From Bacteroidota bacterium (GTDB lineage: Bacteria; Bacteroidota; Bacteroidia; B-17B0; Aurantibacillaceae), in NCBI GenBank assembly GCA_018267655.1, contig JAFDYB010000034.1, forward strand, positions 1 through 64,000: DNA of 64,000 bases. Direction: 5' to 3'. This document shows positions 5,960 through 20,147 of this stretch, piece after piece. A model generated the notes under the pieces. It worked only from the letters and a program-made list of their open reading frames with translations. It was not told where the DNA came from and searched no databases. Both the position numbers and the translations under genes were made by a program. Position 1 is the first letter of the stretch; the number at the start of each line of letters is the position of its first letter.

Positions 5960-7357
5960 CTACATCTTAAACATATTAGCAATTAGCCCGGGTAAAACAC
6001 CTATTACTAATATAGCTAGCGTTGATAATACTATTGCAATAGCTTGAGGCTTGTCAAGTTCAAACGTTTTTTCGCCATCGTGCTTTTGATAAAACATTGC
6101 AATAACAATTTTTAAATAGTAATAAATGCCTATTGCAGATGCCAATATGGCTAATACTAATAACCATTTAAACGAAGTTCCTATTAGGGCAGTGAACACA
6201 AAATATTTTGCAAAAAATCCGGCAGTAATTGGAATGCCGCCTAAAGACAACATTGCTATTGTCATACAAAAAGCTAACATTGGATTTTTTTTAGCCAAGC
6301 CATTAAAAGCATCAGTGTTTTCGTTGCCATTTGCATTTTTAGCTGCTACGTGTAACACCCCAAAAGCTACAATGCTTGCTAAACTATACGCCAGTGAATA
6401 ATAAATAACTGCATTTAACGACAAATTGCTTCTAACATTTGCAAGCACAACCATTAGCATAAATGCAGCATGACTTATGCTTGAAAATGCCAACATTCGT
6501 TTTACGTTACTTTGCATTGCAGCCGAAAAATTAGCAATAACAAGTGACAAAGCAATTATAACTGCGAGTATTAATGTCCAACTTTCGCTAATGCCACTAA
6601 ATGCAATCATAAACAAACGCAATATAGCTGCAAAAGCAGCTGTTTTAACTACTGTACTCATTAAGGCAGTTATTAATGTAGGCGAACCATGATACACATC
6701 GGGTGCCCAAAAATGAAAAGGAGCGGCACTCACTTTAAAACTCATAGCAACTAATATCATTATTACACCAACGTAAAAAAACATTGGCATATTTGCTGCA
6801 TTTTGACTAGTATATTCGCTTATTAAATTTATATCGAATGTTCCTGTAGCGCCATAAATTAAAGCAATACCAAATAATAAAAAGCCACTTGCAAAGGATC
6901 CCATTATTAAATATTTAAATCCGGCTTCATTGCTTTTAATATCTTTCTTTTTACTTGATGCCAGTACATATAAAGGAATGCTCATAATTTCAATACCTAA
7001 AAACAAGGTTGTCATATTTTTAAATGCAGTTAGCATTAGAGCGCCAACTATTACAAAAAGCACTAATGTAAAATGGTCAACTAAATTACTGTCTTCTTCA
7101 AAATAATTGTGCGAAAGTATAAACCAAAAAAATGCTGTAATAATTATTATACCCGAAAAAGCAATTGCCACTTTGTCAAACGCAATCATGTTGCTGAAGT
7201 AAGAAATATCACAGGGCGTATTCCATTCAAAAACATTAAGTGTATATGCTAATGCTATGCCTATTAATACGAGCGGTAATAATACTTTTTTAAATTTAAA
7301 AATTTCGGCAAGCATTGCAATAATGCCTAATCCGCTAATAACAAGTAGTCCCTTCAT
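5960..7357 (-). CDS. nuoN: NADH-quinone oxidoreductase subunit N
   Basis: One of the three antiporter-like membrane subunits of complex I. The 465-residue protein is almost wholly hydrophobic, with about 13-14 predicted helices and the Proton_antipo_M core. Family signs are LGIEIMSIPLYVLASSKKKD around residues 120-140, KVSAAPFHFWAPDVYHGSP around 208-226 with the conserved Lys, and NVKRMLAFSSISHAAFM around 280-296. It is the last gene of the nuo operon and follows nuoM after 12 bases. The 30-base gap to the convergent prmA has no clear hairpin terminator. Confidence 0.97.
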   Translation of the reverse strand: MKGLLVISGLGIIAMLAEIFKFKKVLLPLVLIGIALAYTLNVFEWNTPCDISYFSNMIAFDKVAIAFSGIIIITAFFWFILSHNYFEEDSNLVDHFTLVLFVIVGALMLTAFKNMTTLFLGIEIMSIPLYVLASSKKKDIKSNEAGFKYLIMGSFASGFLLFGIALIYGATGTFDINLISEYTSQNAANMPMFFYVGVIMILVAMSFKVSAAPFHFWAPDVYHGSPTLITALMSTVVKTAAFAAILRLFMIAFSGISESWTLILAVIIALSLVIANFSAAMQSNVKRMLAFSSISHAAFMLMVVLANVRSNLSLNAVIYYSLAYSLASIVAFGVLHVAAKNANGNENTDAFNGLAKKNPMLAFCMTIAMLSLGGIPITAGFFAKYFVFTALIGTSFKWLLVLAILASAIGIYYYLKIVIAMFYQKHDGEKTFELDKPQAIAIVLSTLAILVIGVLPGLIANMFKM

Positions 7358-7369
7358 AATGCTAATACG

Positions 7370-8839
7370 TTATGGTTGTTTTATTAATGTGATAATTTGT
7401 TTTGCGCCTTCTTCTGCTATGTCGTTTAATGGTTTTGGATAAACACCAAAAGCTATAATTGCAATACAAATTACAATTAAAATAGTTTTATCGCTTGATG
7501 CCAATGGCCCAAATTCAACCCCGGCATTTTGTTTAATTTCACCGAGCATAATTTTTTGGTAGCTTCTAAGCATATACACCGCACTCAATATAATGGTTAG
7601 CCCTGCAAAAGCTGATGCTACTAAACTATACTTAAACACTCCGCTAAATGTTATAAATTCTCCAACAAAGCTATTTGTAAATGGCAGGGCAACTGCATCA
7701 AACGTAATTATTAAAAATAGTACGGCAAAGTTACCGTTCATATTTCTAATACCTCCTAGTTTAGTAATGTCACGCGTACCTGTGTGACGAAATAATATAT
7801 CAGCTACTAAAAACAAACCAACAACACTGCAACCATGCGCAAGCATTTGCATGTAAGCTCCCTGTATGCCCTGTTGATTTGCTGCCAATATACCGGCCGA
7901 CATAAAACCAACGTGTGCTATTGATGAATATGCAATTAAACGCTTATAATCCGTTTGAACAATAGCAATGCACGATGCATAAACAATACCAATTATTGAA
8001 AGTGTAATTGCCGTACCCCCGCTATGTGCTACTCCCATTGGCACCATTGGTAACAACCATTTTATTGCACCAAAAGTTCCCATTTTTAGCATTATGCCTG
8101 AAAGCAGCATAGTGCCTTGTGTTGGAGCATTAACATAGGTGTTTGGTTGCCACGTGTGGAATGGAAACACCGGCATTTTAACCGCAAATGCAAGAAATAT
8201 AAACCAAAACACAATGCTTTGTTGTTTTACTGTAAGCAATTTACCGGCTGCATACATATCATTTACATTCCATGATTTTAAACCATTTACATTTGTATGA
8301 TTGTAAATGTAAATTAAGCCAATAAGCATAAATAAAGAGCCTAGCAATGTGTAAACGAAAAATTTAAAGGTTATTCTTCCTCTATCCTCACCGCCCCATA
8401 ATAAGCAAATAAAATAAATTGGAATTAATGCAAGTTCCCAAAACACATAAAATAAAAAGCCATCGTTAGCCATAAACACGCCCAACATTGCGCTTTGCAT
8501 TAATAGTATTAAAGCAAAAAAATTATATGCTCTTTTGTATTCATTTTTAAATGCCGACAATACAATTAACGGTAACAAAAAATTAGATAACAAAACCAAT
8601 AATATTCCAACTGCGGTAATGCTCAAATCAAACCTTACGCCTAGCGAGTCTATCCATGGTAAATTGATTTTTAGTAAATCAGAATTTGGATTTGTTTTAA
8701 AAACAAACAGCGCAGCTAATGATAAAATAAACCCAAGCAAAGTGGTAGTTAAAGCTATTGACTTAGCTGATTGGCTTTTGCCAAAAAATAATACTAAAGC
8801 GCTAAGAAACGGTATGCCTAAAAGTAGTAATGTTAACAT
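7370..8839 (-). CDS. nuoM: NADH-quinone oxidoreductase subunit M
   Basis: Antiporter-like proton-pumping subunit of complex I, 489 residues, about 14 membrane helices. Characteristic stretches are FYVFWELALIPIYFICLLWGG near residues 128-148 (with the functional Glu of helix 5), AFAVKMPVFPFHTWQPNTYV near 217-236, and DYKRLIAYSSIAHVGFMSAG near 295-315. Length and motif order are normal for NuoM. It sits between nuoL and nuoN with gaps of 13 and 12 bases and is surely co-transcribed with them. Confidence 0.97.
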   Translation of the reverse strand: MLTLLLLGIPFLSALVLFFGKSQSAKSIALTTTLLGFILSLAALFVFKTNPNSDLLKINLPWIDSLGVRFDLSITAVGILLVLLSNFLLPLIVLSAFKNEYKRAYNFFALILLMQSAMLGVFMANDGFLFYVFWELALIPIYFICLLWGGEDRGRITFKFFVYTLLGSLFMLIGLIYIYNHTNVNGLKSWNVNDMYAAGKLLTVKQQSIVFWFIFLAFAVKMPVFPFHTWQPNTYVNAPTQGTMLLSGIMLKMGTFGAIKWLLPMVPMGVAHSGGTAITLSIIGIVYASCIAIVQTDYKRLIAYSSIAHVGFMSAGILAANQQGIQGAYMQMLAHGCSVVGLFLVADILFRHTGTRDITKLGGIRNMNGNFAVLFLIITFDAVALPFTNSFVGEFITFSGVFKYSLVASAFAGLTIILSAVYMLRSYQKIMLGEIKQNAGVEFGPLASSDKTILIVICIAIIAFGVYPKPLNDIAEEGAKQIITLIKQP

Positions 8840-8852
8840 AATTATTTAATTC

Positions 8853-10745
8853 TTAATTTATTGCCATGGTTAAAAGTACTATACACATGATAACTCCCAC
8901 AACCATGCTTATTATATAAAACCCAATATTTCCTTGTTGTAATAATCTTACCGCAGAACCCGATGTTTTTACAAAAGTTCCAACGCCATTTACAATTCCG
9001 TCAATTACTTGGTTATCTACAACTTTACTAAAGAAAGAAGATACAACGTCAATTGGTTTTTGAATAATTGTTTCGTAAATCTCATCAACATAGAACTTAT
9101 GAAACACTAATTTTTGCCAAGGTTTAAACTCATTTTCTTTTTCAACAGGAAGAACTTTGTTTTTCATATACAGCATATAGGCAAAATAAATACTCGCTGC
9201 GGCTGATAATATTGCTAAGCCCATTAATGTTGCTTCGGTTTCATGACTGAGCATTAATGGATTTTTAATTTTTATTACTTCATCTAAATGATGGTGCATC
9301 CAATTTGGTAAGCCTATAAATTCAGGCAAACCCAATAATCCTCCAATAATTGAAAGTGCTGCTAATACAATTAGTGGGAAAGTCATATTTGATGGCGACT
9401 CATGAAGATGATGTTCTTGCTCATGTGTACCCTTAAAGCTACCGTAAAATGTCAAAAAAATCATTCGGAACATGTAAAAAGCAGTAAGGATTGATGTTAG
9501 CATACCCACAAGCCATAATATTTTATTTTGCTCATAAACGTGCGCTAATAATTCATCTTTACTAAAAAACCCGCTAAACGGAGGAACGCCACTAATTGCT
9601 ATTGTTCCAATTAGCATTGTTATGAATGTGATTTTTATTTTTCCTTTTAATCCTCCCATTCTTCTAATATCTTGTTCGCCACCCATAGCATGAATTACAG
9701 AGCCTGCACCCAAAAATAAAAGTGCTTTAAAAAACGCATGTGTAGTAACATGAAATACTGCACTGCTATATGCGCCAACCCCAAGGCCTAAAAACATTAA
9801 CCCCAATTGCGAAACTGTTGAGTAAGCTAGAATTTTTTTAATATCATTTTGAAGTGTACCTATAATTGCAGCAAATAGCGCAGTAATAGCTCCAACAATA
9901 GCAACAAACGATGAGGCCTCTTGACTCATTGAGTAAAATACATTTGAGCGAACAATTATAAAAATACCCGCAGTTACCATTGTTGCAGCGTGTATTAAAG
10001 CTGACACAGGTGTCGGCCCAGCCATTGCATCGGGGAGCCAAGTATATAAAGGTAACTGAGCTGATTTTCCCATTGCGCCAATAAAAATAAATATAGCAAT
10101 TAACGTTATTGTGCTTGTTGAGGCTGTACCTGCTTTTTCAAATACTTCGGTATAACTTATGCTATTATAATTAGTGAAGATTAAAACGGTTGCTAATAAA
10201 AAACCTAAGTCGCCAATGCGATTCATTATAAAAGCTTTTTTTGCAGCGTTATTATAAGCAGTGTTTTTAAACCAAAAGCCAATTAGCAAGTAAGAGCAAA
10301 GTCCAACACCTTCCCAACCCACAAAGCTTACTACATAGTTATTGCCCAGCACTAGCAACAACATAAAAAACACGAATAAATTTAAGTAGGTAAAAAAACG
10401 AGAAAACCCTTCATCGCTATGCATATAACCAATTGAATAAACATGTATTAAAAAGCCTATTCCGGTAATTATTAATAAAAACCAAGCAGATAAAGGGTCA
10501 TATAGAAACTGGAAGGGAATTGTCAAATCACCTGAGTTTATCCAATCAAAAACATTTACAATGTTTTGCTTATGTGTAGAACTTTCTAATTCAAAAAATG
10601 CAAGTATCGAAATAATAAACGAAGCCAAAACACTGCCTGAGGCAATTATGCCACTCAAACTTTTAGTTATTTTTTTACCAAAAAAACCATTTATCAAAAA
10701 TCCAATGAGTGGAAAAAGCGGAACGAGTGATATTAATTTTATCAT
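8853..10745 (-). CDS. nuoL: NADH-quinone oxidoreductase subunit L
   Basis: The distal antiporter-like subunit of complex I, 630 residues. It begins with the Proton_antipo_N region (FVGWEGVGLCSYLLIGFW near 141-158). The core has AKKAFIMNRIGDLGFLLA near 168-185, KSAQLPLYTWLPDAMAGPTPVSALIHAATMV near 227-257 and NDIKKILAYSTVSQLGLMF near 300-318. A long C-terminal extension to residue 630 corresponds to the lateral amphipathic helix and the last membrane anchor. Length is normal. It is preceded by nuoK at 8 bases and followed by nuoM at 13 bases. Confidence 0.97.
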   Translation of the reverse strand: MIKLISLVPLFPLIGFLINGFFGKKITKSLSGIIASGSVLASFIISILAFFELESSTHKQNIVNVFDWINSGDLTIPFQFLYDPLSAWFLLIITGIGFLIHVYSIGYMHSDEGFSRFFTYLNLFVFFMLLLVLGNNYVVSFVGWEGVGLCSYLLIGFWFKNTAYNNAAKKAFIMNRIGDLGFLLATVLIFTNYNSISYTEVFEKAGTASTSTITLIAIFIFIGAMGKSAQLPLYTWLPDAMAGPTPVSALIHAATMVTAGIFIIVRSNVFYSMSQEASSFVAIVGAITALFAAIIGTLQNDIKKILAYSTVSQLGLMFLGLGVGAYSSAVFHVTTHAFFKALLFLGAGSVIHAMGGEQDIRRMGGLKGKIKITFITMLIGTIAISGVPPFSGFFSKDELLAHVYEQNKILWLVGMLTSILTAFYMFRMIFLTFYGSFKGTHEQEHHLHESPSNMTFPLIVLAALSIIGGLLGLPEFIGLPNWMHHHLDEVIKIKNPLMLSHETEATLMGLAILSAAASIYFAYMLYMKNKVLPVEKENEFKPWQKLVFHKFYVDEIYETIIQKPIDVVSSFFSKVVDNQVIDGIVNGVGTFVKTSGSAVRLLQQGNIGFYIISMVVGVIMCIVLLTMAIN

Positions 10746-10753
10746 ATAATTTT

Positions 10754-11065
10754 TTAATTTTTTAAATTACTTAATAAATCTGTGTCAATACTTTTAATAT
10801 TACGGTAAATCATACTTAATATTGCCAAGCCAACTGCTACCTCAGCCGCAGCCACCGCCATAATAAAAAACACAAAAACTTGTCCGGAGGCATCGTTATG
10901 AAGGACACTAAACGACACAAGCAATAAATTAACTGCATTCAGCATTAATTCAATGCACATAAAAATAATTATAGAGTTACGGCGTGCCATAACGCCTACT
11001 GCGCCTATAATAAACAATACCGCAGAGAGCAGTATATAATAATTTATTGAAATTCCATTTATCAT
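10754..11065 (-). CDS. nuoK: NADH-quinone oxidoreductase subunit K
   Basis: Small membrane subunit of complex I, 103 residues with three helices. It shows the family core [30 protein letters not shown] (residues about 23-52) with the conserved membrane Glu, and the second conserved Glu in [17 protein letters not shown] (about 71-87). Its ATG overlaps the stop of nuoJ by four bases, which points to translational coupling. Confidence 0.96.
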
Positions 11066-11574
11066 TTTATTTCTTTTTTACCTATCATTATTGCTCCAAC
11101 CAAAGCTGCCAATAACAAAATACTGGCTATTTCGAATGGAAATAAAAATTCGCTGAATAATACTTTTCCTAAGTTTTTTACTAATCCTATTTGGCTAGCA
11201 CCGTAAGTTGTAAGCTGCAACTGCTCTGACCCTTTTAATGACCCTACTAAGACAAACAGCATTAATCCTCCGGATATACCTGCAATTATTTTTGTTAACC
11301 ATGTTCGCTGTGGTTCAGTATCTTGATTTAAATTCATAAGCATTATAACAAAGAGAAACAAAACCATAATAGCGCCGGCATAAACAACAATATGCACTAC
11401 TGCCAAAAATTGAGCATTTAACAATAAGTAATGTCCTGCAATACAAAAAAAAGCCATCACAAGATAAAGCACGCTGTTAACAGGGTTTCGGCTAAAAACA
11501 ACCATTAGCCCAAACATAATGGCTAAGAACGAAAGTATTCCAAAAAGCCATTGAGTTATTGTATATCCTAACAT
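11062..11574 (-). CDS. nuoJ: NADH-quinone oxidoreductase subunit J
   Basis: Membrane subunit of complex I, 170 residues with five helices. The family stretch [23 protein letters not shown] (residues about 60-82) is present, including the pi-bulge region of helix 3. It follows nuoI after 22 bases and overlaps nuoK by four bases. The C-terminal end carries a short basic tail after the last helix. Confidence 0.96.
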
Positions 11575-11596
11575 ATTCTTCTAATTAATTCTTTAT

Positions 11597-12199
11597 TTAA
11601 TGTCCTTTTATTTTTTTTCCGTTCCAAAGCGTGTTATGTTTTGTTCCCGGTATTTTTTTAAACTCGGCTACTTCAATAGTTTGACGCTTTGTTACATCTA
11701 TGCGCTTGTCTATTTTTTCAACTAACTTATCTTTCCCATAAATAAAATCTTCACGTTCAAATTCAACATCTACAAGACGGTCGGTTAAAAATATAGCTTC
11801 TTTAGGGCATGCTTCTTCACACAAGCCACAAAAAATACAACGCAACATGTTAATTTCATAAATGCGTGCGTATTTTTCTTCGCGGTATAAATGCTCTTCT
11901 CCTTTTTTGCGCTCTCCACTTTCCATAGTAATTGCTTCAGCCGGACAGGCAACGGCGCACATACCACAAGAAGTACAACGTTCTGCACCATTTTCGTCAC
12001 GTTTTAAAACATGCTGCCCACGATACACAGGTGCCATAGGTCTTAACTCATCGGGATACTTAACAGTTGCTCTACGTTTAAATAAATGGCTCCCGGTAAT
12101 TAACATTCCCTTTATTATTTCAGGTAAGTATATTTTTTCGGAAGTGCTCATTACCTTATTTGAGACAACTTTGCTGCGGTTTGTAAGTTTCATTTCCAT
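11597..12199 (-). CDS. nuoI: NADH-quinone oxidoreductase subunit I
   Basis: Peripheral-arm subunit that carries clusters N6a and N6b. The 200-residue protein has two classical 4Fe-4S motifs: Cys75/78/81/85 (CTSCGMCAVACP) and Cys121/124/127/131 (CIFCGLCEEACP). A basic N-terminal segment with the RRATVKYPDE stretch lies before them. An in-frame ATG two codons downstream (12193) is an alternative start. nuoH ends one base before this gene starts, so the two genes are practically contiguous. Confidence 0.97.
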   Translation of the reverse strand: MEMKLTNRSKVVSNKVMSTSEKIYLPEIIKGMLITGSHLFKRRATVKYPDELRPMAPVYRGQHVLKRDENGAERCTSCGMCAVACPAEAITMESGERKKGEEHLYREEKYARIYEINMLRCIFCGLCEEACPKEAIFLTDRLVDVEFEREDFIYGKDKLVEKIDKRIDVTKRQTIEVAEFKKIPGTKHNTLWNGKKIKGH

Positions 12200-12200
12200 T

Positions 12201-13259
12201 TTAAAAATGTATATTTCCTCTTATAAATTCTATCACTACTGTAAGCGCCAAGTTAAACAACGACAGTGGCAATAATATTTTCCATCCTAAATTCATCAAT
12301 TGGTCGTATCGGAAGCGTGGTAAAGTCCAACGAATCCACATAAAAACGCAAATAAATATAACGATTTTAGTGAAAAATGCTCCAAATCCGATTAAAGAAA
12401 TCCAAATACTTCCTTCTTGTAAACCTAACGCATGGTATAACTCTTGTGCAAACGGAAAATTATATCCACCAAAGTAAAAAGCGCTCATGATAGCTGATGA
12501 AACAAACATATTAATGTATTCTGCAAATAAATATAATCCTAATTTCATTGAAGAATATTCTGTGTGGTAGCCTCCAACTAACTCCGATTCGCACTCAGGC
12601 AAATCAAATGGGGCGCGATTAGTTTCAGCTAAAGCACAAATAAAAAATATTAAGAACCCTAAAGGTTGCCATACAACATTTGCAACCCCTGCATCTTGCT
12701 GCTCTACAATATCGTGCAAACTAAGTGAACCGCCGGTTGATATTACTAAGCTAATAATACTAATACCCATTGCTATTTCATAACTAATCATTTGTGATGA
12801 AGCGCGTATAGCTCCTAATAAAGCGTATTTATTGTTTGATGCCCATCCGCCAATCATAATACCATATACTCCAATGGAAGCAACTCCCAATATATACAAT
12901 ACCCCTATGTTAATATCGGTAATTTGAAATGAAATGTGTTTGCCTGATGAAGTAATAAAATCTTTTCCCCAAGGAATTACGCTGCCCGTTAAAAGAGCTG
13001 TTATCATAAACAAACTTGGGCCTAAAATGAATAAAAACTTATTGCTCACATTAGGAATAATTTCTTCTTTAAAAAACATTTTGCCACCATCGGCTAAGGG
13101 CTGTAACAAACCCTTTGGTCCTGCTCTATCCGGGCCTACTCTATCTTGAAGTAATGCCGAAAATTTTCTTTCCCACAATGTTGAATACGCTGCTACTCCT
13201 AACGATATCGCAAATACAACGGTACAAGTAATTAACTTTATTAATATAAAACTTATCAT
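12201..13259 (-). CDS. nuoH: NADH-quinone oxidoreductase subunit H
   Basis: Membrane subunit at the junction with the peripheral arm, forming part of the quinone chamber. It has 352 residues and about eight helices. Diagnostic segments are WERKFSALLQDRVGPDRAGP (residues 29-48), ASSQMISYEIAMGISIIS near 157-175, AETNRAPFDLPECESELVGG near 220-240 and YHTEYSSMKLGLYLFAEY. The charged loop ETNRAPFDLPE is the most conserved signature of the family. It lies three bases after nuoG and directly before nuoI. Confidence 0.97.
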   Translation of the reverse strand: MISFILIKLITCTVVFAISLGVAAYSTLWERKFSALLQDRVGPDRAGPKGLLQPLADGGKMFFKEEIIPNVSNKFLFILGPSLFMITALLTGSVIPWGKDFITSSGKHISFQITDINIGVLYILGVASIGVYGIMIGGWASNNKYALLGAIRASSQMISYEIAMGISIISLVISTGGSLSLHDIVEQQDAGVANVVWQPLGFLIFFICALAETNRAPFDLPECESELVGGYHTEYSSMKLGLYLFAEYINMFVSSAIMSAFYFGGYNFPFAQELYHALGLQEGSIWISLIGFGAFFTKIVIFICVFMWIRWTLPRFRYDQLMNLGWKILLPLSLFNLALTVVIEFIRGNIHF

Positions 13260-13262
13260 AAT

Positions 13263-14246
13263 TTATGGTCGTTTATCAATTTTCATAAAGCCTAAGGCTT
13301 TTTGTTGTTTCATTATTTGAACTTTTAACTCATTTAAGTGTGTATAATGGTTTTGAGAAATTACACTATGGCGGTTAACTTTTGTTGGGCCTTCAATTAC
13401 CCAATCACTTGTTTTCTTTTTATCAAAACGGCATTCGTTACAAATAAAATCTTCCACTTCGCCCCATTCGTCTTTACGGCCCGTAACTCTTAAAATATCT
13501 TCGCCTTTATACCACAATCTAACATTGCCTTTGCATTTTTTACAATCTCTATGAGCATCAACCGGTTTAGTAAACCAAACACGTTGTTTAAAACGAAATG
13601 TTTTATCGGTTAAAGCACCCACAGGGCAAACATCAATTACATTGCCTGAAAAATCATTTTCAATTACATTTTCGATATATGTTGTAATTTCTGAAGCGTC
13701 GCCTCTATGCATCATGCCATGTACGCGCCCATCGGTTAGCTGTTCTGCCACTTTTACACAGCGGTAACAATGAATGCAACGGTTCATGTGTAATTTAATT
13801 TTATTGCCAATATCAATTACCTCATACTCACGTTTTTTAAATTCAAGGCGTGACTTTTCAGTTCCATGCCCGTAAGATAAATCTTGTAAATCGCACTCAC
13901 CAGCTTGGTCGCATACCGGGCAATCTAAAGGGTGGTTTAATAGTAAAAATTCTACAACCCCTTTGCGAGCTTCTAAAATATCTGGCGATGTAACGTTTTG
14001 AACAACCATTCCTTCCATAACTTCTGTTCTACAACTTGCAACAGGCTTTGGCATTGGGTTAGGGTTAGCTGCACTACCTTGCGTAACTTTTACTAAGCAA
14101 GTGCGACAATACCCTCCTGATGTTTTTAGTTTTGAATAGTAGCACATGGTGGGAGGTGCCACTTCGTGCCCTATCATACGTGCTGCTTGAAGAATGGTAG
14201 TTCCTTTTGGCACATCAATTTCTATTCCGTCTATTGTTACTTTCAT
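13263..14246 (-). CDS. nuoG: NADH-quinone oxidoreductase subunit G, short form
   Basis: Iron-sulfur subunit of the electron-input module. At 327 residues it is far shorter than the roughly 700-900 residues of proteobacterial NuoG, because the molybdopterin-oxidoreductase-like domain is missing. Visible ligands are the 2Fe-2S set Cys35/47/50/72, the N5 set His105/Cys109/112/118 and the N4 set Cys157/160/163/207. A further CxxC pair at 235/238 and 269/272 stands where the N7-like domain would begin. Short NuoG proteins are usual in Bacteroidota, so this is not a broken gene. The ORF6N gene, not nuoF, lies directly upstream, 18 bases away. Confidence 0.95.
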   Translation of the reverse strand: MKVTIDGIEIDVPKGTTILQAARMIGHEVAPPTMCYYSKLKTSGGYCRTCLVKVTQGSAANPNPMPKPVASCRTEVMEGMVVQNVTSPDILEARKGVVEFLLLNHPLDCPVCDQAGECDLQDLSYGHGTEKSRLEFKKREYEVIDIGNKIKLHMNRCIHCYRCVKVAEQLTDGRVHGMMHRGDASEITTYIENVIENDFSGNVIDVCPVGALTDKTFRFKQRVWFTKPVDAHRDCKKCKGNVRLWYKGEDILRVTGRKDEWGEVEDFICNECRFDKKKTSDWVIEGPTKVNRHSVISQNHYTHLNELKVQIMKQQKALGFMKIDKRP

Positions 14247-14264
14247 TTTATCTGAAATACTTTT

Positions 14265-14777
14265 TTAAACTTTATATCCTATTTTTTTCCGTTTAATAAT
14301 TTTTTCCTCTGCTTTTTTTGCGTCCATTAAATAATTTAACGCTTCATAAACATCAGAAAATTGTTTGTTGTACTTTTTTTCAACTTCTTCAATCTTTTTA
14401 GCTAAATCAGCATGTTGGAGTAACATTTGTTTTGCCGCAACAAATACGCGCATAATGCTAATGTTTACCTGTATAGCCTTTTTACTTTTTAGTACACTTG
14501 AAAGCATAGCCACACCTTGTTCTGTAAAGGCATAAGGCATTTTTTGGGTACCGCCCCTTTTTTCTGTTTTTGATATCACAATTTGTGACATCAAAGTTTC
14601 AAATTCTGTTTTAGTTAACTGAAACATAAAATCATCGGGAAAACGCTCAGCGTTCCTTTTCACAGCCTGATTTAAAACTCTTGTTTCAATTTCATACATA
14701 GCGGCCAAATCAAAATCAAGCATAACCTTTTGGTTACGGATTTCAAAAATTTTGCTTTGTATGTTTTTTATAATCAT
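14265..14777 (-). CDS. ORF6N-domain protein inserted between nuoF and nuoG
   Basis: A 170-residue protein unrelated to complex I. Residues about 8-95 form an ORF6N domain: [20 protein letters not shown], then [24 protein letters not shown], then [22 protein letters not shown]. This phage-type DNA-binding domain is related to KilA-N/BRO proteins and occurs in phages and in bacterial chromosomes. The C-terminal part (about 110-170) is helical and charged, probably coiled-coil. It sits in the nuo operon on the same strand, 6 bases after nuoF and 18 bases before nuoG, so it must be transcribed with nuo unless it has its own promoter. No flanking repeats were seen. A link to complex I is unproven, and a recently settled selfish or phage-derived gene is the simplest view. 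Confidence 0.88.
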
Positions 14778-14783
14778 TCTCTG

Positions 14784-16121
14784 CTATTTTGCTATTTTAT
14801 TTAATCGGTTATAATGACTTACATCATTAAATTTTTTACTTTTAGCAATATCAATAAACTCTTGTTTGAAATGGCGAATAGCAGCAGCTACAGGCCATGC
14901 AGCGGCTTCTCCTAAAGGACAAATAGTTTTTCCTTCTATTTTTCCTTGAACGTCCCAAAGCAAATCAACATCGCTTTCGTTTGCAGTGCCGTTCAAAAAT
15001 TTATGTAATATTTTTTCCATCCATGCAGTTCCTTCACGGCATGGCGAGCATTGCCCGCAAGATTCGTGGCGATAGAAGCGTGAGAAGGTAAATAAATTTT
15101 TAACAATACTTGTATCTTCGTCCATTACAATAAATCCACCAGAACCTAACATCGTACCGGTTTGAAAACCTCCATCAGAAAGGCTTTCGTATGTCATTAA
15201 ACGAGGCTCGCCTTTAGCGGTTTTTAAAATTAATTCGGTAGGCAAAATGGGTACCGATGAGCCTCCGGCTACCACAGCTTTTAATTTTTTACCGTTTCGA
15301 ATGCCTCCACAATATTCTTCACTATAAATAAACTCTTCTACGGGTACTCCTAATTCAATTTCATAAACACCGGGCTTATTGATATGCCCTGATGCTGAAA
15401 TTAATTTTGTTCCGGTTGATTTTCCAATGCCAATTTTTGCATACTCTTCACCACCCATATTTACAATTGGGCAAACAGCAGCAATGGTTTCAACATTATT
15501 AACTACTGTTGGGCAACCCCACAATCCTGCAACGGCAGGAAATGGTGGTTTAATGCGCGGATTACCGCGTTTGCCTTCTAATGATTCTAATAAAGCGGTT
15601 TCTTCACCACAAATATAAGCCCCTCCACCTACTTGCACTGATAATTCAAGTGAGTAATTAGTGCCTAAAATATTTTTTCCTAACCAGCCTGCTGCATAAG
15701 CTTCGCGAATGGCTTGTTCTAAAATACGCGCCACATAAAAATATTCGCCACGGATATAAATATAAGATTGATTGGCCCCCAACGCATAAGAAGAGGTTAT
15801 CATTCCCTCAACTAAAGCATGAGGGATTTTTTCCATTAAATAGCGATCTTTAAATGTTCCAGGTTCCGACTCATCGGCATTACATACTAAATAACGAGGC
15901 ACTCCTTCGGGTTTTGCTAAAAAACTCCACTTCAAGCCTGTAGGAAATCCTGCTCCTCCGCGCCCGCGCAATCCCGATTTTTTAACCTCATCGGTAACTT
16001 GATCGGGGGTCATTGTTTTTAAAGCTTTCTCTACTGAAGCGTATCCTCCATGGGCTCTATATACCTCAAGGGTGTGAATGCCTTGTACTTTATCATTATG
16101 TATTAAAAGTTTCTTTCCCAT
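14784..16121 (-). CDS. nuoF: NADH-quinone oxidoreductase subunit F
   Basis: The NADH- and FMN-binding subunit with cluster N3, 445 residues. It shows the NADH-binding loop GLRGRGGAGFPTGLKW (about 51-66), the FMN-binding stretch YLVCNADESEPGTFKDR (about 77-93), GGGAYICGEETAL (about 165-177) and the 4Fe-4S ligands in ESCGQCSPCREG (about 353-364) with a later Cys in TICPLGE. Its start codon overlaps the end of nuoE by one base. Downstream, only 6 bases separate it from the foreign ORF6N gene. Confidence 0.97.
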   Translation of the reverse strand: MGKKLLIHNDKVQGIHTLEVYRAHGGYASVEKALKTMTPDQVTDEVKKSGLRGRGGAGFPTGLKWSFLAKPEGVPRYLVCNADESEPGTFKDRYLMEKIPHALVEGMITSSYALGANQSYIYIRGEYFYVARILEQAIREAYAAGWLGKNILGTNYSLELSVQVGGGAYICGEETALLESLEGKRGNPRIKPPFPAVAGLWGCPTVVNNVETIAAVCPIVNMGGEEYAKIGIGKSTGTKLISASGHINKPGVYEIELGVPVEEFIYSEEYCGGIRNGKKLKAVVAGGSSVPILPTELILKTAKGEPRLMTYESLSDGGFQTGTMLGSGGFIVMDEDTSIVKNLFTFSRFYRHESCGQCSPCREGTAWMEKILHKFLNGTANESDVDLLWDVQGKIEGKTICPLGEAAAWPVAAAIRHFKQEFIDIAKSKKFNDVSHYNRLNKIAK

Positions 16122-16702
16122 TACAATGTGTTTTGATAGTCTAAATCAGTATAATTTCGTTGTTTGCCTTCCGATTTGTATTTTTCAAGAATAGAATCTA
16201 CTTTTTCGTACGTTAAATTTTCGTGAAAGGACGCTCCACATTGCAGCATCGGTGCGGTTCCACAAGAACCTAAACATTCGGCGGTTTTAAGTGTAAACAT
16301 ACCATCTTTAGTAGTTTCGCCCGCTTTTATGTTCAATTTTTTTTCGATGTATTTTACTATATCCTCTGCTCCATTTAACCAGCATGAGCTTGTTTGACAA
16401 ACCTCTAATACACACTTGCCAACCGGTTTTAAATTATACATGGTGTAAAACGAAGCCACTTCAAACACTTCAACAGAACGAATTTTTAAAACAGAAGCTA
16501 CATAATCCATCACTTCGGGGCTTAACCAGCCGCCAAACTCAGCTTGAGCTAAATGTAAAATAGGTAACAAAGCCGATTTTTGTTTTCCTTCAGGATAACG
16601 ACTAATAATTGTTTTTACGGTTTCCATTGCCGCATCGCTAAACTTTATTTCGGCTCGTTTAGCTTTATCAAAGTGTTGTGCTCCGTGTACTTGACTACTC
16701 AT
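16121..16702 (-). CDS. nuoE: NADH-quinone oxidoreductase subunit E
   Basis: Thioredoxin-fold 2Fe-2S subunit (cluster N1a) of the NADH-dehydrogenase module, 193 residues. The cluster ligands Cys102, Cys107, Cys143 and Cys147 are all present in the normal C-x4-C and C-x3-C spacing. The helical N-terminal region with LLPILHLAQAEFGGWLSPEV is typical. The gene follows nuoD after 24 bases and shares one base with nuoF. Confidence 0.97.
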   Translation of the reverse strand: MSSQVHGAQHFDKAKRAEIKFSDAAMETVKTIISRYPEGKQKSALLPILHLAQAEFGGWLSPEVMDYVASVLKIRSVEVFEVASFYTMYNLKPVGKCVLEVCQTSSCWLNGAEDIVKYIEKKLNIKAGETTKDGMFTLKTAECLGSCGTAPMLQCGASFHENLTYEKVDSILEKYKSEGKQRNYTDLDYQNTL

Positions 16703-16726
16703 TTATTTAAAAGTTTTATTTTTCAA

Positions 16727-17938
16727 TTACGCATCTAATTCTCCAGCAATTACATTCATGCTACTCATTGTTATTATGGCATCGCTTAACATGCTTCCTT
16801 TCACCATCTCTGGGTATGCCTGATAGTAAATAAAGCATGGTCTTCTAAAATGCAGGCGATATGGGGTTCTGCCGCCATCACTCACCAAATAAAATCCAAG
16901 CTCGCCATTACCTCCTTCAACACAATGATAAACTTCACCCTTTGGCGCATCAGTTTCTCCCATTACAATTTTAAAGTGATAAATTAAAGCTTCCATTTGG
17001 TTATAAACTTGTTCTTTTGGCGGCAGGTAAAAATCAGGCACATCGGCTCTAAAGCCACCCTCTTTGGGCATATTTTTTAAGGCTTGTTCTATTATTTTTA
17101 ATGATTGCCACATTTCCTCTTGCCGCACCATAAAACGATCGTAAGTATCGCCACTTGTGCCTACAGGTACAATAAAATCAAAGTCCTCGTATGATGAATA
17201 TGGGGAAGCTATGCGCACATCGTAATCAACGCCGGCTGCACGTAAGTTTGGGCCTGTAAAACTGTATTCTAAAGCCATTTCTGCGCTAATTGGGCCGCAG
17301 TTTATTGTACGGTCCATAAATATTCTATTTCTTTCTAAAAGCCCTGCAAATTCTTTTAATGCCTTAGGATATTCTTTTACAAAGCTCTGTATCAATTCCC
17401 ATGTTTTTGGCGACCAATCGCGCTCAAATCCACCTATTCTGCCAATGTTTGAGGTTAAACGACCGCCGCAAATTGACTCATAAATATCATATATTTTTTC
17501 GCGCCATTGGAAAATATATAAAAATCCTGTCATGGCGCCGGTATCAACGCCTATTACTGAATTGCAAATTAAGTGGTCTGATATTCGCGAAAGCTCCATG
17601 ATAATAATACGCATGTATTCAACACGCTTGGGTAGCTTTACGCCGTATAATTTTTCAACAGTCATTTCCCAACCCATATTATTAATAGGCGCCGAGCAAT
17701 AGTTTAATCTATCTGTTATTGGTGTAATTTGCCCGTAAGGGCGACGTTCTGCTAATTTTTCAAAAGCACGATGTATATAACCAACGGTAGGCGTAGCTTC
17801 ATGAATAATTTCGCCATCCATTTTTAACACGTTTTGAAAAATACCGTGTGTTGCAGGGTGCGTAGGCCCAAGATTTAGAGTAGAGTATTCTTTCTCTTCT
17901 TCTTGTGGTGTAGGTTCAATATTAATTTGCTTACTCAT
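16727..17938 (-). CDS. nuoD: NADH-quinone oxidoreductase subunit D
   Basis: The 49-kDa-type subunit of complex I that lines the quinone site, 403 residues, separate from NuoC as in most bacteria outside the enterics. Signatures are LNLGPTHPATHGIFQNVLKMDGE (about 21-43), GYIHRAFEKLAE (about 53-64), the YCSAPINNMGW stretch (about 80-90), and the C-terminal RPCFIYYQAYPEMVKGSMLSDAIITMSSMNVIAGELDA. The gene upstream is not nuoC but a methyltransferase that ends 7 bases before this start. Confidence 0.97.
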   Translation of the reverse strand: MSKQINIEPTPQEEEKEYSTLNLGPTHPATHGIFQNVLKMDGEIIHEATPTVGYIHRAFEKLAERRPYGQITPITDRLNYCSAPINNMGWEMTVEKLYGVKLPKRVEYMRIIIMELSRISDHLICNSVIGVDTGAMTGFLYIFQWREKIYDIYESICGGRLTSNIGRIGGFERDWSPKTWELIQSFVKEYPKALKEFAGLLERNRIFMDRTINCGPISAEMALEYSFTGPNLRAAGVDYDVRIASPYSSYEDFDFIVPVGTSGDTYDRFMVRQEEMWQSLKIIEQALKNMPKEGGFRADVPDFYLPPKEQVYNQMEALIYHFKIVMGETDAPKGEVYHCVEGGNGELGFYLVSDGGRTPYRLHFRRPCFIYYQAYPEMVKGSMLSDAIITMSSMNVIAGELDA

Positions 17939-17945
17939 TTATAAA

Positions 17946-18644
17946 TTATTTCAAAATTTCTTTTGCTTTAAGTATTGATTTGTTTAAGAATGAATTTTCG
18001 TTATCGTGGATTTTTTTTATTGCTTTTTGTGTAAGGTAGGACTTTATTGTTCCTCCAAATCGTTTAAAATGTAGCCAATCTCTTTCATCTGTGCCAATTT
18101 TTTTAAATACAGCTATGTTGCGAAGACTTTGAGGAATGTAATTAAAATCTTTACGATTTTTTTTTATATAATTAACTAAAAACGACGTACTTTCCATCCA
18201 AGTGTCGTGCAAAACTATGTACCCGTTTGTTTCGATGAGTAAAGATGCGTAATAAAAGTCAACAAATTGTCCGTCAAATTTATGATCTCCATCAATAAAA
18301 ATAAAATCAAAACTTCTTTTTTGGTTTAATAATTTAGGCAGGGCTTCGTGTGAAGGCTCGGCGTAAAACTCAAGATTATTTGTAAGCCCAAGTTTTTCAA
18401 TGTTTTTTAACCCGCAGTTTTGGTAATTTGCTTGAAATGGGTCAATACCTACATGCTTAGTATTTGTTGCGGTAATAATTGAAGCTGCAGAAAGGCCGAG
18501 ACCAAAACCTGTTTCAAGTGTTTTTTTAAAATTATTTTCTTTAATAAGATGATGAAGGTATTTGCCTTCGCTGAATTTTACAGCTGAAGATTTAATGTCT
18601 TCCGGCAGATCAATTTTATCTTTTATTTCTTCAATCCCTATCAT
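17946..18644 (-). CDS. Class I SAM-dependent methyltransferase inserted between nuoC and nuoD
   Basis: A 232-residue methyltransferase of the Methyltransf_24 type. Motif I is LETGFGLGLSAASI (about 42-55), followed by HVGIDPFQANYQ (motif II region), and the core strand FDFIFIDGDHKFDGQFVDF (about 111-129) has the IDGDH signature of this family. The C-terminal 60 residues are basic and helical. Such enzymes often stand in polysaccharide or natural-product clusters, and the substrate here cannot be read from sequence. Its placement is odd: it lies in the nuo operon with gaps of 5 bases from nuoC and 7 bases to nuoD, in the same direction, as though it were a normal member. A role in modifying a complex I subunit is possible but only inference. 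Confidence 0.85.
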   Translation of the reverse strand: MIGIEEIKDKIDLPEDIKSSAVKFSEGKYLHHLIKENNFKKTLETGFGLGLSAASIITATNTKHVGIDPFQANYQNCGLKNIEKLGLTNNLEFYAEPSHEALPKLLNQKRSFDFIFIDGDHKFDGQFVDFYYASLLIETNGYIVLHDTWMESTSFLVNYIKKNRKDFNYIPQSLRNIAVFKKIGTDERDWLHFKRFGGTIKSYLTQKAIKKIHDNENSFLNKSILKAKEILK

Positions 18645-18649
18645 TGTAT

Positions 18650-19150
18650 TTATCTTCCAAACATTTTATCCTCTTTATCATCTCTTGTTTGATCTTCAAG
18701 TGGAAACTCTTTTCTTAGAGGGAAAATATCCATTTCATCTACATTTAAAATGCGCTTTAGGTTTGGATGTCCTTTAAACTTAATTCCGAAAAAATCGTAA
18801 GTTTCGCGCTCCATCCAATTAGCTGCCGGCCATATATCGGTAGCGGTAGGCAATTCAGGTTTTGCTATATCAAAAAAAGTTTTAATGCGTACACGGTAAT
18901 TTTTAGGCATATTGTGTAGGTGATACACTACTCCCAATTTTTTTTCATCGGGGGTTTGAATACCTGTTAAATCAGTAAGAAAATGAAAATTTAAATCTGT
19001 ATCATTTTTTAAAAACGCTAATACTTGATGTATAAATTCATGTTTTATTTCAAAAACTGGGAAATTGTATGCCAATTCATCATGTATTATTGCTTCTGGC
19101 AATAGTGTTTTTATTTTCTCGGAAACAAGTGTATGTACTTCGGCGCTCAT
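18650..19150 (-). CDS. nuoC: NADH-quinone oxidoreductase subunit C
   Basis: The 30-kDa-type subunit of the complex I connecting module, 166 residues. The signature is in the second half: YRVRIKTFFD, then LPTATDIWPAANWMERETYDFFGIKFKGHPNLKRIL with the conserved ERE.YD.FGI core, and the end FPLEDQTRDDKED. It follows nuoB after 12 bases. The next gene, 5 bases away, is the methyltransferase rather than nuoD. Confidence 0.96.
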   Translation of the reverse strand: MSAEVHTLVSEKIKTLLPEAIIHDELAYNFPVFEIKHEFIHQVLAFLKNDTDLNFHFLTDLTGIQTPDEKKLGVVYHLHNMPKNYRVRIKTFFDIAKPELPTATDIWPAANWMERETYDFFGIKFKGHPNLKRILNVDEMDIFPLRKEFPLEDQTRDDKEDKMFGR

Positions 19151-19162
19151 TTAATTTTGTTT

Positions 19163-19723
19163 TTATTCAATACCATAACTATTTAGTAATCGCTTATACT
19201 CGGGCGAATCGCGCCTTCTTAAACTTTCATTTTTAGCCAGCTCTTGTATTTTCATTACGCCTTCAATAATTTGCTCTGGGCGTGGTGGGCAACCCGGTAC
19301 ATATACATCAACCGGAATAATTCTGTCTATTCCCTGTAATACGGAGTAGGTATCAAAAATACCGCCGCTACTTGCACAAGCGCCAACACTTAGTACCCAT
19401 TTAGGTTCTGCCATTTGCTCATATACTTGGCGTAGGGTTGGCCCCATTTTTTTAGCAATAGTTCCCATTACCATGAGCATATCAGCTTGGCGGGGTGAAA
19501 AGCTTAAGCGTTCACTTCCAAAACGGGCTAAATCGTAATTACTTGCCATTGTTGCCATAAATTCAATGCCACAACAAGAAGTAGCAAAAGGCAGTGGCCA
19601 TAACGAATTGGCGCGCGCCAATCCTATAACTTCTTCGAGCTTTGTAGCAAAAAAACCAGGCCCTTCAATACCTTGTGGCATTTTTGCCATCTCTAACTTT
19701 GTTCGTTTTGTAACTTCTTTCAT
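19163..19723 (-). CDS. nuoB: NADH-quinone oxidoreductase subunit B
   Basis: Carries the terminal cluster N2 that hands electrons to quinone. The 186-residue protein has all four ligands: the tandem Cys50-Cys51 in [10 protein letters not shown], Cys116 in VGACASSGG and Cys145 in [10 protein letters not shown]. The stretch [20 protein letters not shown] is the other family hallmark. The first 30 residues form an amphipathic basic N-terminus. It follows nuoA after 49 bases, the widest gap in the operon. Confidence 0.98.
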
Positions 19724-19772
19724 TTTAAATGTTTTAAAAAAGATAGATTTCTTTTTACATTGAATTTAATAA

Positions 19773-20147
19773 TTACTCTTCGTGTTTTATTGCCTTTTTT
19801 GAAAGCATATAATAAAATCCTATCAATAATAATACAACAAAGGTAAACACTTCAATAACACCCAAAAGCCCCAGTTCTTTAAAATTTACAGCCCAGGGGT
19901 ACATAAAAATCACTTCTATATCAAATAACACAAAAATAATGGCTACTAAGAAATATTTTATGGCAAAAGGCAAGCGCGCGTTTCCATGCGACTCAATGCC
20001 ACATTCAAATGTGTCGAGTTTAATTTTTGATTTTCGCTTAGGACCTAAGGCGTGTGATGCAAACATTGTTACAACTACAAAACCCAATGCCACAAAAAAC
20101 ATTATTATGATAGGAATGTAGTCGTGAGGAGAAGATAAAGCAGACAT
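19773..20147 (-). CDS. nuoA: NADH-quinone oxidoreductase subunit A
   Basis: First gene of the complex I operon. The 124-residue membrane subunit has three helices and the diagnostic loop KLDTFECGIESHGNARLPFAIKYFLVAIIF (about 43-72) with the conserved Cys, followed by DIEVIFMYPWAVNF. A TACTTTTG match to the Bacteroidota -7 element lies right at the start (20150-20157 on the - strand) but is too close to the ATG to be convincing. I therefore do not assign the operon promoter. Confidence 0.97.
   Translation of the reverse strand: MSALSSPHDYIPIIIMFFVALGFVVVTMFASHALGPKRKSKIKLDTFECGIESHGNARLPFAIKYFLVAIIFVLFDIEVIFMYPWAVNFKELGLLGVIEVFTFVVLLLIGFYYMLSKKAIKHEE

Follow-up and report, generated by a model that had tools for sequence, protein, structure and literature searches.

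The methyltransferase gene seated between nuoC and nuoD in the window (the whole stretch of 64,000 nucleotides that was analysed) is probably a long-resident passenger, or accessory, gene of the nuo operon. It is rare and dispensable for complex I, being carried by 3 of the 87 genomes of the order, whereas NuoD was found in 79 of them. It evolves under purifying selection, and the nuo junctions of the family frequently hold passenger genes. The gene would be transcribed with nuo, and its product is predicted to be a small O-methyltransferase of the catechol/caffeoyl-CoA fold group that probably works with the help of a metal and would act on a small molecule with no link to complex I.

The nuo operon runs from nuoA to nuoN at positions 5960 to 20147 on the minus strand, as do all the genes described here. 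The methyltransferase gene (17946 to 18644) codes for 232 amino acids from an ATG start and lies 5 bases downstream of nuoC (18650 to 19150, Complex1_30kDa) and 7 bases upstream of nuoD (16727 to 17938, Complex1_49kDa), both of which were identified with Pfam and NCBIfam. The open reading frame coordinates and the Pfam matches thus agree with the initial annotation, in which a SAM methyltransferase had been placed at this junction with the same two gaps. The operon had also been described as complete and ordered from nuoA to nuoN. This applies to the remainder of the operon, but a second passenger had been missed, a gene coding for an ORF6N-domain protein of 170 amino acids (14265 to 14777) between nuoF and nuoG, with gaps of 6 and 18 bases.

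The methyltransferase belongs to the class I SAM-dependent enzymes and is O-methyltransferase-like. Its best Pfam match is Methyltransf_24 (PF13578; E = 1.7e-12, 48.6 bits, cut-off 26.3), a broad family whose name reveals no substrate; the IDGDH...HD motif is intact in the protein. Methyltransf_3 (PF01596), the profile of the metal-dependent O-methyltransferases, is also above its curated cut-off (47.2 bits against 22), and NCBIfam gave the protein no name. Two other species have orthologues at this junction, and omega = 1 was strongly rejected (2dlnL 217-263), from which we conclude that this is a real gene under purifying selection and that neutral evolution is out; the omega values themselves were unusable because synonymous sites were saturated, and only the rejection of omega = 1 was retained. 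The comparison with related genomes proposed in the initial annotation therefore did recover the same gene at nuoC|nuoD in three species. In a scan of the nuo operon genes for promoters and terminators, sites were no commoner than in shuffled sequences. Since no such sites above chance separate these genes, and since the methyltransferase gene is separated from the adjacent genes by a few bases, its co-transcription with nuo is likely.

With presence defined as a match at E<=1e-15 across the 87 genomes of the order, the methyltransferase was found in 3 of the 40 genomes of the genus and in none of the 47 outside it. The carriers are the window's own genome (G000), G028 (75 % identity; record JANYBY010000372.1, a Bacteroidetes metagenome assembly) and G002 (71 % identity), and in all three the gene lies at nuoC|nuoD on the same strand as its neighbours, with gaps of 3-18 bases. 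The 37 congeneric genomes lacking it, nearly all of which have nuoD, include G033, whose NuoD is the most similar in the genus (89 %). An ordinary short spacer, with no insert of more than 250 bases, was present at 68 of the 73 resolved nuoC|nuoD junctions of the family, and a search of the empty spacers for remnants of the methyltransferase gave short, chance-level matches only. Absence from the nuo operons of close relatives had been named in the initial annotation as the observation that would speak against a role in complex I, and apart from the two other carriers this is what was seen. The gene is thus not kept with nuo across relatives, as a conserved complex I accessory gene would be; the junction is empty in relatives and homologues occur in unrelated contexts, as in a nuo-junction passenger.

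The three carriers do not form a clade. A tree of NuoB to NuoF rejected a single clade of carriers (lnL 122 lower, p-AU 0.005), and the CarB+GatB tree needed three changes to account for the carrier pattern. In the latter the G028 row is unreliable, having a suspiciously long branch and possibly consisting of merged fragments of an internally duplicated protein, so GatB was also used alone, with marginal rejection of the single clade (p-AU 0.042). The methyltransferase must therefore have been lost repeatedly or have moved. With a single entry, the nuo tree would require some seven losses (by visual count), and three separate arrivals at one and the same junction would be coincidental unless recombination via the nuo flanks carried the gene. 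The history would then have been one entry at nuoC|nuoD, followed either by loss in most lineages or by spread between relatives through recombination in the flanking nuo genes. The methyltransferase tree pairs G000 with G028 (89/89), whereas in the nuo tree G002 is nearer to G028 and G000 stands apart; because alternative topologies of the methyltransferase tree were not rejected (p-AU 0.057 and 0.061), this difference between gene and host trees only suggests transfer between carriers. The residence appears to be old, since divergence among the carrier methyltransferases is about that of NuoC, with differences near 50 % at third codon positions and of 8-14 % at second ones, and since GC3 is close to that of the host nuoC (0.246, 0.353 and 0.234 for the methyltransferase against 0.235, 0.329 and 0.230 in the three carriers), i.e. 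codon use is host-like. A point against a mere passenger is that three non-sister carriers share an identical junction and that purifying selection acts on the gene; its position could therefore matter.

To place this insertion in context, every resolvable nuo junction of the family was measured (loci L063-L100 and L107-L146), more than 250 extra bases being counted as an insert. Inserts were present at 83 of 796 junctions (about 10 %), most often at nuoF|nuoG (34 of 63, 54 %), followed by nuoJ|nuoK (14 of 55) and nuoD|nuoE (13 of 72), and at none of the 61 nuoG|nuoH junctions. The atp operon, a control of one operon and three junctions only, had inserts at 1 of 88 junctions when 30 genomes from the genus were examined. 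The difference gave Fisher p = 0.002, or 0.034 when nuoF|nuoG was left out; both values are too small because related genomes were counted as independent. Among 15 other families of the class, inserts were found at 7 of 145 nuo junctions.

The cargo is diverse, including 23S rRNA intervening-sequence proteins (23S-IVP), a nucleotidyltransferase with a HepT-like partner, DUF4160 with DUF2442, ORF6N, TonB-C/TPR proteins, DUF805, VOC, SUKH and lipoprotein-like open reading frames. With nuo inserts so frequent and so varied, one more tight insertion is unsurprising, and tight packing within a core operon is weak evidence for shared function where insertions into that operon are common. The uptake of horizontally acquired genes by operons that already exist has been discussed (PMC2259305, where Omelchenko et al. 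2003 is cited for mosaic operons). The present case resembles it in that an unrelated gene is tightly placed inside a conserved operon, and differs in that several junctions of one core operon have received inserts time and again across a family, and the cargoes are many and different. The wider pattern is thus that about one nuo junction in ten, and half of those at nuoF|nuoG, hold inserts in this family, nucleotidyltransferase/HepT pairs and the ORF6N protein among them. The ORF6N protein of the window matches the PADLOC candidate defence family PDC-S05 and phage anti-repressor families, and G002, G014, G036 and G071 have relatives of it in their nuo regions. Carrier G028 (L089) has a DUF4160 gene at nuoE|nuoF and two nucleotidyltransferase/HepT-like pairs at nuoF|nuoG. 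In another family of the class, G051 (L241) has an open reading frame of 586 amino acids with a signal-peptide-like start at nuoC|nuoD, which is not a homologue of the methyltransferase.

The initial annotation had suggested that the enzyme acts on NuoD or NuoC, with a possible convergent parallel in NDUFAF7, which dimethylates Arg85 of NDUFS2 (PMC3829151). That the enzyme, as a convergent counterpart of NDUFAF7, methylates NuoD, NuoC or an adjacent subunit while complex I is being assembled is considered distinctly improbable. The shared junction in non-sister species and the purifying selection argue for it, as does the presence in NuoD of Arg57 (codon at 17768 to 17770), the positional equivalent of Arg85 (motif GYIHRAFEK against GLLHRGTEK). 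This arginine is, however, invariant in all 77 NuoD sequences that have a residue at this alignment position, with or without the methyltransferase gene, and a search of NuoB, NuoC, NuoD, NuoE and NuoF for residues common to the three carriers and rare elsewhere returned none, so that no trace of the enzyme acting on NuoD or NuoC was seen. The equivalent arginine is dimethylated in Paracoccus denitrificans, unmodified in complex I of E. coli and replaced by threonine in Thermus (PMC3750175), and bacteria can therefore manage without the mark. The small-molecule O-methyltransferase fold, the homologues outside nuo and the 37 congeneric genomes without the gene also speak against this assignment. 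In G024 (L085), NuoD is apparently in two overlapping pieces in different frames, the result of a frameshift or an assembly error.

NDUFAF7 had been assigned to a different methyltransferase family (MidA/DUF185), correctly, as the protein studied here has no PF02636 match and only those to PF13578 and PF01596. The likeness to NDUFAF7/MidA is that of a SAM methyltransferase with a link to complex I, which in this case is one of gene position alone, and the differences are the missing PF02636 domain, the O-methyltransferases as fold relatives, the target arginine that is independent of the gene and the patchy occurrence in relatives. MidA itself was found in 2 of the 40 genomes of the genus, G032 (L276) and G011 (L277), both of them less complete or more contaminated assemblies. 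It was not found in the other 38, which include all the carriers, so MidA does not already occupy the role, and this favours a part in complex I; the genus nevertheless shows no sign of needing the NDUFAF7/MidA job. An unlikely broader proposal is that some Bacteroidota have taken a COMT-type methyltransferase into their nuo operon for the modification of complex I or the quinone pool, as an independent bacterial parallel to NDUFAF7 in a genus almost wholly without MidA. If true, bacteria would have a system for modifying complex I (or quinone) that operates without MidA.

The structure of the methyltransferase was modelled from an alignment of 13 sequences (pLDDT 75, pTM 0.75), with most of the core at 85-96 and the C-terminal third poor; a model from a two-sequence alignment (pLDDT 33) was discarded. 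A Foldseek search of the PDB with the model gave catechol, caffeoyl-CoA-type and norbelladine O-methyltransferases as the best matches (E about 1e-11, TM about 0.65), headed by the catechol O-methyltransferase of Niastella koreensis (7cvu; E 7.5e-12, TM 0.64-0.68), so that the predicted fold is COMT-like. A five-sequence profile searched against the PDB retrieved the same catechol/caffeoyl-CoA group. Because the model and the sequence profile are both closest to these enzymes, a small-molecule substrate is the default expectation, although the enzyme may instead methylate a protein.

The enzyme shares with the COMT/CCoAOMT group (PF01596; 7cvu, 1sui and 5kva from sorghum) a score above the Pfam cut-off, the overall fold and two aligned aspartates, and differs from it in having only about 15-24 % identity; the comparison includes a C-terminal third that is poorly modelled. 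Asp118 and Asp147 align with conserved aspartates of the group, among them those of 8gxo. The asparagine and the lysine (of the DADK motif) that we take to be the metal-binding and catalytic residues of the group correspond to Thr148 and His121. Two of the three usual metal ligands are thus aligned, the third presumably being that asparagine, and this weakens the idea that the enzyme O-methylates a quinol or catechol-like redox metabolite of the respiratory chain, with a functional placement in nuo and complex I not the substrate. The nearest solved folds do act on catechols, and the gene is positioned for co-expression with a quinone-reducing enzyme. On the other hand, no quinone-pathway gene was seen alongside the methyltransferase, and the homologues examined are not near genes of quinone biosynthesis, apart from the one in G218 discussed below; we regard such a substrate as very unlikely.

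Sampling 395 genomes from the class and another 395 from the phylum yielded two further full-length homologues, with 44-50 % identity to the three carriers and neither of them in a nuo operon, which is too few to reveal the role of the methyltransferase family. The homologue in G218 stands alone amid unrelated genes, about 4 kb from a gene for a chorismate-binding enzyme, and that in G408 closes an lpx (lipid A) run, following lpxD, lpxC/fabZ, lpxA and an ABC ATPase gene. A more distant homologue in G572 comes after a polysaccharide deacetylase. The G408 and G572 contexts, together with the breadth of Methyltransf_24, are what favours a stray sugar or polysaccharide methyltransferase, the alternative put forward in the initial annotation. 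No glycosyltransferase was found among the scanned neighbours of the two closest homologues, which lie outside glycan clusters save for the position of one at the end of the lpx run, and both sequence and fold are closest to catechol/caffeoyl-CoA O-methyltransferases of the small-molecule type. That alternative is accordingly judged to be quite improbable. A defence role was also considered, and the methyltransferase was without a match in PADLOC; it also had no match in phage records. Matches in plasmid records were distant only, and relatives on viral contigs were also distant, the best having 38 % identity over two thirds of the protein.
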